From the NCBI GenBank assembly GCA_030041075.1, contig JASHOP010000010.1, positions 1 through 35,107 on the forward strand: a stretch of 35,107 bases of DNA, written 5' to 3'. Source of the DNA: Thermoplasmata archaeon (lineage in GTDB: Archaea > Thermoplasmatota > Thermoplasmata > Lutacidiplasmatales > UBA184). Below the pieces are notes generated by a model. It searched no databases and was not told the DNA's origin. It saw only the letters and a list, made by a program, of their open reading frames with translations. The position numbers and the translations under genes were made by a program. Shown one piece after another: positions 25,220 to 28,724 of this stretch; within the stretch, counting starts at the first letter, position 1, and every line of letters begins with the position of its first letter.

Positions 25220-28200
25220 GTGGAAACGTACTTTCGGGGCATCGAGGCGAGCGTCGACCGCGCGTACGAGGTCGCGGAGCGCGCTCGCCAGGAGGGTCTC
25301 GACCCGCAGATCGCCACCGAGATCCCCCGCGCCCAGGACATGGCGTCCCGCGTGGAGAAGCTCCTCGCGCACCTGCGGATCGACGGGATCTCCTCCGAGA
25401 TCCGCGCGCTCGCCGCGACGATGCCCCGGGAGGAGGTCGCCGTCGCGGTCGCCCGGCGCCTCGCGAACGACACGAGCCGGGGCGGGTCGATCGCCTCCCG
25501 GGTCGACGCCGCGCTCCGGGTCGGCCTCGCGATCCTGACCGAAGGGATCCTGGTCGCGCCGCTCGAGGGCCTCGCCGAGGTCCGGCTCCACGAGGGACGC
25601 GACGGCGGGCCGTACATCGAGCTCTACTACGCCGGGCCGATCCGCGCGGCCGGCGGGACGGCCCAGGCGCTCAGCGTGCTGCTCGCGGACATCGTCCGGC
25701 GGGATCTCGGCCTCGCGGCGTTCCGCGCGGGCGACGACGAGGTCGAGCGCTACAAGGAGGAGATCCCGCTCTACAAGTTCCACCAGCACCTCCAGTACGT
25801 CCCGACCCCCGAGGAGATCGAGCGGGTCGTCTCCCACGTCCCCGTCGCGATCTCCGGCGAGGCGACCGAGGGCGACGCGGAGGTGAGCGCGTTCCGCGAT
25901 CTTCCCCGGGTCCCGACGAACGGGATCCGGGGCGGAGCGTGCCTGGTCATCGCCGAGGGGCTCTGCCAGAAGTCCGCCAAGCTGCGGAAGATCGTCGAGA
26001 AGCTCGGCCTCACGGGGTGGGAGTTCCTCGCGGACTTGGGGCACCGGCCCACCGAGGACGACGACCCGGGGATCCCGAAGTACCTCCAGGAGGCGGTCGG
26101 GGGCCGGCCGGTCCTCGCCGACCCGAACCGCCCCGGGGGGTTCCGCCTCGTCTACGGCCGGGTGCGCACCTCCGGTCTCGCGGCGTGCGCGGTCAACCCC
26201 GCCTCGATGGTCGTCCTCCAGCACTTCGTCGCGATCGGCACGCAAGTGAAGCTCGAGCTCCCGGGCAAGGCGTCCGCGATGGGGGTCTGCGACACCGTCG
26301 AGGGACCGATCGTCGAGCTTGAGGACGGGACGGTCACCGCGGCCCACGAGGTCGAGCGCGCGGAGGCGCTGCTCCCGTTCGTCCGGAGGATCGTCGATCT
26401 CGGGGAGATCCTGGTCGGCTTCGGGGAGTTCCTCGAGAACAACCGGCCGCTCGCCCCCGGGGCGTACTCGCTTCCCTGGCACGTCGAGGAACTTCGGGCC
26501 GCGGGGGCCGATCCCGAGGCGGGAGCGTCGGTCGCCACGTACGACGAGGCCGTCCGCTTCGCCGTCGCCCACCGGGTCCCGCTCCACCCGCGCTGGCTCC
26601 TGTTCTGGCACGACCTCGCGCCGGCGGAGATCCGGGCGCTCGCCGAGTTCGTCGAGCGGTCCGGGCGTTGGCACGAGGGCGCCCTCGAGCTTCCCGCCGA
26701 CGCCGCGTGGCGCGAGCTCCTGGCCCAGCTCGGGGTGCTCTCGCGCCCGCTCGGGGCCGAGCGCATCCGCCTCGAGACCGACTCGAGCGCCGCGCTGGTC
26801 GGGGGCCTGGGCCTCGAGGCCGCCGGGGACGCCCTCGTCCGGACCGTCCCGCTCGACCCGATGGCGGTCGACCCGCTCGAGTACGCGAGCCGGCTCGCCG
26901 GGGTCCCGATCCGGGCCCGGGGACCGACCCGGATCGGCGGGAGGGTCGGCCGGCCCGAGAAGGCCCACCTCCGCGCGATGCAGCCGAACGTGCACGCCCT
27001 GTTCCCGGTCGGCGACGCGGGGGGACCGAAGCGGTCGCTGCCGGACGCGGCCCGGCGGACGATCGCCGGGGGGAGCCGCGTCGAGCTCGGCGTGCGACGC
27101 TGCCCCTCGTGCAGCCGCCTCTCGGTCTGGTGCCGCTGCGCGTGCGGGGCGCACACCGACGCGACCGGGGAGGTCCGGACCCATGCGCTGCCGATCGCCC
27201 CGCTCTGGAGCGAGGCGCTCGCCCGGCTCAACCTCGCGAAGGCGCCGGCGGTCAAGGGAGTCAAGGGGCTCGTCTCCCCGGGGAAGGTGCCCGAGCCGCT
27301 CGAGAAGGGGATCCTCCGGGCCGCCCACCAGGTCTCCGTCTACCAGGACGGGACGGCCCGGTTCGACCTCACGAACCTGCCCCTCACCCACTTCCGGCCG
27401 GTCGAGGTCGGGACGGACCTCGCGACCCTCCGCCGACTCGGCTACGCGCGCGACGTGAACGGGGAGGAGCTCACCGACCCCGAGCAGCTGCTCGAGCTGA
27501 AGCCGCAGGACCTGGTCGTCGCGCGGTCGTGCGGCGCGTACCTGACCCGGCTGGCGCAGTTCGTCGACGACGAGCTCGTCCGCCTGTACTCCGGGACGCC
27601 GTTCTACCGGGCCGAGCGGCCCGAGGACCTGGTCGGGGCGGTCGTGGTCGCCCTGGCGCCGCACACCTCGGGAGGCGTCGCCGGCCGATTGCTCGGGTTC
27701 ACCTCGGCGGAGGCGTGCTTCGCGCATCCGGTCTTCCACGCCGCCAAGCGACGCAACTGCGACGGGGACGAGGACTCGGTCACGCTCCTCCTCGACGCGC
27801 TCCTCAACTTCTCCCGGGCGTACCTCCCCGACTCGCGCGGCGCGCTCATGGACAAGCCCCTCGTCCTGACGACCCGGCTCGAGGCGATGGAGGTCGACAA
27901 GGAGGCCCACAACGTCGACGTCGGGACCCGCTACCCGCTCGCGCTGTTCCGGGCGGCGTCCGCGGGGAAGCCCTCGAAGGAGGTCGAGCCGCTCATCGAC
28001 CTGGTCGGGAAGCGCCTCGGGACCGAGCGGTCGCTCGCGGGCTACGGCTTCACCCACGACACGCGGCGAATCGCGGGAGGGCCGGTCCGGTCCGCGTACC
28101 GGGACGGCCGGTCGATGGCCGATATCGTCGAGCGGTCGGTCGTCCTGACGACCCAGATCCGCGCGGTCGACGTCGGCCGGGCCGTGGGGCTCGTGCTCAA

Positions 28201-28600
28201 CGCCCACTTCCTCCCGGACGTGATGGGGAACCTCAAGGGCTACGCGACGCAGAAGTTCCGGTGCCGGGTCTGCGGGGCCGACTACCGGCGTCCCCCCCTC
28301 TCGGGACGGTGCGTCGCGCCCGCCGCCGGGGGGAACGCGTGCGGGGGCGAGCTCCTGTCGACGGTCTACGAGGCGTCGGTCCGCAAGTACCTCCCGCTCG
28401 CCCAGCGGCTCGGGGCGATGGACGGGATCACCCCGTACCTCCGCCAGCGGATCCGGGTCCTCGCCGACTCCCTGGCGTCGTTGTTCCCCGGCTCGACCGC
28501 GCAGACCACGCTCGACGGCTTTGGGCGCGGGCCGGGCCGGCCCGCGCCCCCGGGGGGGGATCGACCCGTGAGCCCGCCCGGGCTCGGAACGGCCAAATAG
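25220..28600 (+). CDS. polC: Archaeal DNA polymerase II (PolD) large subunit DP2, intein-free
   Basis: [84 protein letters not shown], C-terminal zinc cysteines and PIP-like QTTLDGF. Confidence 0.96.
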   Translation: [1126 protein letters not shown]

Positions 28601-28624
28601 ACCGCGCCCTCTCGAGCGCCCGTC

Positions 28625-28724
28625 GGGCTTGTGGGGTAGTCTGGACTATCCTGTCGGCCTTCGAAGCCGACGACCTGGGTTCGAAATCGTGGGACCGCCC
28701 GCGGCGGAACTCCCAGCAAGCCCG
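28625..28724 (+). tRNA. tRNA-Arg(UCG), split by T-loop intron; exons 28625-28685 and 28711-28724
   Basis: Acceptor GGGCTTG/CAAGCCC+G73; D-arm GGGT..TCCT; anticodon stem TCGGC/GCCGA with loop CTTCGAA; T-arm CTGGG-TTCGAA|T-CCCAG after removing 25 nt. Confidence 0.88.
28686..28710 (+). other. 25-nt tRNA intron at position 59/60 (atcgtgggaccgcccgcggcggaac)
   Basis: BHB fold: outer CTGGG/CCCAG, central TTCG/CGGA (one U-G), 3-nt bulges AAA and ACT, inner TCGTGGG/CCCGCGG with ACCG loop. Confidence 0.82.

Follow-up and report, generated by a model that had tools for sequence, protein, structure and literature searches.

A soil archaeon that we place in the Thermoplasmatota carries an arginine tRNA gene that is broken within its T-loop by a 25-nt intron. 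The gene, tRNA-Arg(UCG), occupies positions 28625-28724 (+) of the window (the whole stretch of DNA analysed, 35,107 nucleotides), and the intron occupies 28686-28710, at tRNA position 59/60. We are highly confident that this tRNA-Arg(UCG) gene is functional and present in one copy, and that its insert is a true archaeal intron, one that an alpha-prime-2 splicing endonuclease would excise before RtcB joins the exons. The cutting enzyme of this lineage had been thought too simple for such introns, and about four in ten of the tRNA genes identified in the genome carry them. We consider it likely that Thermoplasmatota break the rule tying loop-bearing endonucleases to non-canonical introns: an ordinary alpha-prime-2 enzyme would suffice, with the T-arm as a universal landing site.

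Judging from the upstream polC/DP2 gene, the host is a member of the Thermoplasmatota lineage that includes Candidatus Lutacidiplasma. A search with DP2 gave, as its top 80 matches, Thermoplasmata MAGs or close relatives of these, among them UBA184, UBA61, and Candidatus Lutacidiplasma silvani, and the window falls within the Thermoplasmata/Lutacidiplasma clade of the DP2 tree. Both results bear out the host suggested in a preliminary description made from the sequence alone. The host group, UBA184 included, bears the order name Lutacidiplasmatales (PMC9287336). The stop of polC/DP2 lies 24 nt 5' of the tRNA gene, and the pair is retained in most relatives within the clade; co-transcription of the two genes is possible.

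Table 1. Features of the interrupted tRNA-Arg(UCG) gene and of the gene upstream, in window coordinates.
Feature	Position	Strand	Evidence
polC/DP2 (DNA polymerase II large subunit), upstream gene	25220..28600	+	Pfam; synteny
Exon 1, tRNA-Arg(UCG)	28625..28685	+	Direct reading; 100% identity across 18 family genomes; fold
Exon 1 content: acceptor 5' strand 28625-28631, D-arm, anticodon arm, T-stem 5' strand 28675-28679, T-loop 54-59 (TTCGAA)			
Anticodon TCG (34-36), loop CTTCGAA	28661..28663	+	Direct reading; ARAGORN, unspliced and spliced form
Central helix 5' strand TTCG (exon), partner 28705-28708	28680..28683	+	Fold; covariation; covariation of base 57 with intron base -6
5' bulge AA/A, cut after 28685	28684..28686	+	Fold; cut place inferred from the known BHB rule
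Intron, 25 nt, site 59/60	28686..28710	+	BHB fold; covariation among relatives; exact absence in L118
Inner helix 5' strand, partner 28698-28704; loop 28694-28697	28687..28693	+	Fold; covariation
Central helix 3' strand CGGA (intron)	28705..28708	+	Fold; covariation
3' bulge AC/T, cut after 28710	28709..28711	+	Fold; cut place inferred from the known BHB rule
Exon 2: T60, T-stem 3' strand 28712-28716, acceptor 3' strand 28717-28723, discriminator G28724	28711..28724	+	Direct reading; alignment

The tRNA-Arg(UCG) precursor is predicted to form a complete bulge-helix-bulge (BHB). The acceptor stem is GGGCTTG/CAAGCCC, the anticodon arm TCGGC-CTTCGAA-GCCGA, and the T-stem CTGGG/CCCAG; the discriminator is G, and CCA is not encoded. 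The intron, ATCGTGGGACCGCCCGCGGCGGAAC, sits between TTCGAA (54-59) and T60. The minimum free energy structure of the 100-nt precursor (RNAfold) is a cloverleaf with an exact BHB (-50.6 kcal/mol, z = -3.8), comprising the T-stem, a 4-bp UUCG/CGGA helix, two 3-nt bulges, a 7-bp inner helix, and an ACCG loop. This is the full BHB drawn in the preliminary description, and covariation agrees with it. A T-arm-anchored search for the architecture (a tRNA interrupted at 59/60, with a central helix of 4 bp) found a single match in the window, at 28625-28724, and one match over the 30 dinucleotide shuffles of the window that served as control (~0.03 expected). The orthologues exclude a chance origin of this architecture.

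Removal of the intron restores a standard tRNA. The spliced 75-mer is called a clean tRNA-Arg(tcg), 1-75, by ARAGORN, and the anticodon can be read directly, in line with the identity first proposed. The unspliced gene scores 20.4 bits with the Rfam tRNA model, against a cut-off of 29. The expectation that simple finders would miss the gene thus holds for Rfam but not quite for ARAGORN, which reports it at 28624-28700 with a wrong 3' end.

The intron lies at 59/60 in 57 of the 58 orthologues scored beside DP2 (window counted). Their exons are nearly fixed, while the intron varies in sequence and length (about 23-38 nt) at a constant site. Among 30 aligned orthologues, 97.6% of structure cells are paired, and every one of the seven inner-helix pairs is altered on both sides in some orthologue. 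Double-sided changes number 71, compared with 21 in shuffles, and shifting the partner by 1-3 columns lowers pairing to 36-52%. These compensatory changes in the intron helix, together with an exon 1 that is identical in 18 genomes, argue against a tRNA pseudogene in decay whose T-loop took up an insertion by chance, a reading that could draw on the source being a MAG and on the unspliced form falling under the Rfam cut-off. No other tRNA-Arg(UCG) was found, and 12 more tRNAs share the design. We therefore give virtually no credence to a pseudogene, which the conservation already refutes. An intact tRNA-Arg(UCG) elsewhere, which the preliminary description had named as the observation that would tell against this gene, did not appear when exon 1 was searched against the 89% complete MAG assembly: exon 1 matches this locus, weakly tRNA-Arg(GCG), and nothing else. 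A second copy could lie in an assembly gap, although all relatives argue otherwise.

The sole intronless orthologue among the 58, L118, provides a natural record of the spliced form. Its sequence runs straight through TTCGAATCCCGG, i.e., TTCGAA/TCCC, which is exactly the predicted spliced junction. Since L118 is nested among intron-bearing lineages in the DP2 tree, exact loss is the simpler reading. This precise loss at the predicted junctions also bears on whether the mature tRNA might keep the insert as a lengthened T-loop arm tolerated by the ribosome, as the stacking of the intron hairpin on the T-stem in the predicted fold could suggest. However, the tertiary contacts between T-loop and D-loop are invariant, and conservation falls precisely on the BHB elements. 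Furthermore, the genome has an RtcB gene alongside EndA. Retention is thus very improbable, and we infer that the tRNA-Arg(UCG) intron is excised in vivo.

Exon base 57 predicts intron base -6. Within the window's family, G57 occurs with C in 106 of 111 cases, and in families f22/f36, 12 of 15 A57 cases have T. The A57 tRNAs of the window's family instead have G opposite in 33 of 38 cases and lack the fourth Watson-Crick pair in the central helix. Some sister introns are therefore not BHBs in the strict sense; the fourth pair may be non-Watson-Crick there, or the helix may be shifted by one. The window's own tRNA-Arg(UCG) intron is a strict BHB.

The genome contains many more such introns. Where the preliminary description treated a single T-loop intron, that intron proves real but is one of 13, and the scale had been underestimated. 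We searched for tRNAs with Rfam and with a model built from seven of the genome's own T-loop-intron tRNAs, and read the sequences with a T-arm-anchored script; the counts, which rest on searches and sequence stretches of an assembly ~89% complete, are provisional. Among 40 tRNA genes identified, 17 are interrupted, with 19 introns in all: 13 at 59/60, five in the D-arm, and one at 37/38. Non-canonical positions thus account for 18 of the 19. The 59/60 introns are in Arg(TCG), Arg(TCT), Asn, Asp, Gln(CTG), Glu(CTC), Gly(TCC), His, Leu(TAG), Lys(TTT), Ser(GCT), Ser(GGA), and Ser(CGA). The D-arm introns, whose junctions are approximate, are in Arg(GCG), Met(CAT), and Pro(TGG), and occur as second introns in Leu(TAG) and Lys(TTT) (G000 loci L025, L030, L187, L066, and L067). 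The lone 37/38 intron is in Leu(TAA). The tRNAs absent from this census of a ~89% complete assembly include tRNA-Trp and tRNA-Tyr. Once spliced, the other 12 T-loop-intron tRNAs are full tRNAs according to ARAGORN, except Lys(TTT) and Leu(TAG), which still hold a D-arm intron; several of the genes were undetected by ARAGORN before splicing. G004, a relative whose genome is listed as 100% complete, shares most of this intron-bearing set and adds Ala(GGC). Counts of covariance-model matches were rejected as a tally of intron-bearing tRNAs because the model scores intronless tRNAs too; sequences were read instead. For these clades, tRNA counts used to gauge MAG completeness can run too low.

The splicing endonuclease is, by sequence, of the euryarchaeal two-repeat alpha-prime-2 type, without a CSL or ASL. 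There is one endonuclease gene per genome, the window's included, with two adjacent PF01974 matches in one frame. Its C-terminal repeat retains the catalytic Tyr, His, and Lys (GFKYGAHFRAY, EHAHARYLV, and GVRKDFL). We infer the dimeric state and the specificity of the enzyme. The nearest PDB sequences are those of enzymes that we take to be from Archaeoglobus (1r0v/2gjw among them), Methanocaldococcus, and Methanopyrus. The loop before LSLIEAAYL aligns without gaps to the wild-type Archaeoglobus enzyme 1r0v; it is gapped against 3p1y, where the loop is longer, and which is presumably the Archaeoglobus enzyme with a grafted A. pernix loop, its sequence differing in that loop. Such a graft has been described (PMC6379350). 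In alignments of the f1, f22, and f36 endonucleases, we found no insertion corresponding to a CSL/ASL (an inserted loop with a conserved Lys before the LSLxEAxYL helix). An insert in the N-terminal repeat (PRGG...KTP) was dropped as a candidate substitute loop because it is common to families where T-loop introns were not seen.

These features leave little room for an acquired broad-specificity enzyme of the crenarchaeal or ARMAN kind, (alpha-beta)2 or epsilon-2 with a CSL/ASL, as the agent of removal. Such enzymes do accompany unusual introns elsewhere (PMC4033280, PMC12397907), but the single gene per genome, with two PF01974 matches in one frame, and the loop that is gapless against wild-type Archaeoglobus, gapped against 3p1y, and free of insertion in all three families make their involvement here highly unlikely. 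The preliminary description reasoned, correctly, that a Thermoplasmatota endonuclease must accept a T-loop BHB, and the enzyme that would do so is an alpha-prime-2 enzyme without special loops.

We propose that the tRNA itself supplies most of the splicing motif. In the precursor BHB, the tRNA's own T-stem would form the outer helix, and its near-universal TTCG would be one of the two central-helix strands. The single endonuclease of this genome (two-repeat alpha-prime-2, no CSL/ASL) would cut both bulges, and RtcB would join the exons into a 75-nt tRNA reading CGA. The exon would thus give the T-stem and TTCR; from the intron would come only a complement to TTCR, such as CGRA, along with two bulge bases and a hairpin. 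Because every tRNA has a T-stem and TTCR, the same intron design fits any tRNA, which would explain both the 13 introns here and the spread of one f36 intron among six tRNAs. T-arms would then be interchangeable intron targets, as the covariation of bases 57 and -6 and the introns of genome G120 suggest. On the same reading, since the T-arm supplies most of a near-canonical BHB, it would be a universal landing site, and entire families would have a large fraction of their tRNA genes interrupted in the T-loop or D-arm. This offers a simple reason why T-loops are good intron targets.

Taken singly, the intron belongs to a known kind and is unremarkable within it. Introns at 59/60 are known in Thermoproteales/Crenarchaeota (PMC4090602), and those described here resemble them in position, BHB, short length, and number, with several per genome and more than one in some tRNAs. 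They differ in phylum and in enzyme, which is (alpha-beta)2 with a CSL there and alpha-prime-2 without one here, and the T-loop site is dominant here (13/19), unlike in those taxa. Atabeyarchaeia and Freyarchaeia (Asgard; PMC11291895) also have many introns, often non-canonical, outside the classical Crenarchaeota; they too belong to another phylum, and the likeness is drawn from introns alone.

What is new is the lineage, the density, and the endonuclease type, a combination that, as far as shown, had not been described in the open literature searched. Euryarchaeota with alpha-4 or alpha-2 enzymes are reviewed as having few tRNA introns, all at 37/38 (PMC4090602), and euryarchaeal alpha-2 (also alpha-4) enzymes are said to cut canonical BHBs only (PMC4033280). 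The Archaeoglobus alpha-prime-2 enzyme is described as narrow in specificity (PMC6379350), and unusual introns are tied to loop-bearing (alpha-beta)2 or epsilon-2 enzymes (PMC4033280, PMC12397907, PMC6379350). Homodimers have also been held to cut BHL-like motifs (PMC8707768). According to a 2014 review, Korarchaeum cryptofilum was the only archaeon to pair a two-repeat homodimeric endonuclease with non-canonical introns (PMC4033280). Its alpha-2 enzyme is likewise two-repeat and homodimeric, a dimer being predicted here, but it has a specific loop, unlike the enzymes described here. A text search of the Lutacidiplasmatales paper (PMC9287336) found no mention of introns or splicing, and no open-access paper on non-canonical introns in Thermoplasmatota was found.

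The 17 interrupted genes among 40 in a genome with a euryarchaeal-type enzyme separate intron position from enzyme loop. The data fit either a narrow enzyme served mostly with canonical BHBs built from the T-arm, or an enzyme broader than supposed. If real, the three-pair (A57) introns would mean that the enzyme is broader than the alpha-prime-2 type is said to be. The idea that enzyme and introns co-evolve thus becomes testable with one protein and a few RNAs.

T-loop introns also occur in at least five families of the phylum besides the window's own. We read them in families f1 (that of the window), f2, f3, f15, f22, and f36, and once in f37; the remaining families were searched less deeply. 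In genome G120 (f36), one near-identical intron occurs in the T-loops of Asp, Glu, Arg(CCT), Ala(TGC), Leu(CAA), and Gly(GCC) (loci L215, L257, L370, L371, L375, and L379). The first five are similar at z = 8-12, and Gly(GCC), whose copy is enlarged by an inner insert, was recognised by its core sequence. All five exact matches of the 17-nt intron core in this genome lie within tRNA T-loops, and no exact copy was found elsewhere in it. This set is best read, from its sequences, as intron transposition into one site. It recalls Thermoproteales-type transposition, in which near-identical introns sit in different isoacceptors of one genome, whereas the 13 introns of the window's genome are not recognisably related: across 78 pairs, none are near-identical (against shuffles, the best z is 3.0 and the mean z 0.5). 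On this basis, we rejected recent transposition in that genome. With likeness hardly above shuffles, any transposition there must be old, although introns presumably did spread by this route within the window's own lineage.

In a sister family of the same order (f3, genome G399), several tRNAs, including Arg(TCG), have two introns, one in the anticodon loop and a very short one of 13-14 nt in the T-loop; the dual-intron loci are L307, L310, L312, L320, L324, and L332. The f37 case, a single reading (L254, genome G122), is an 85-nt T-loop intron with a long AT-rich hairpin in tRNA-Glu(CTC).
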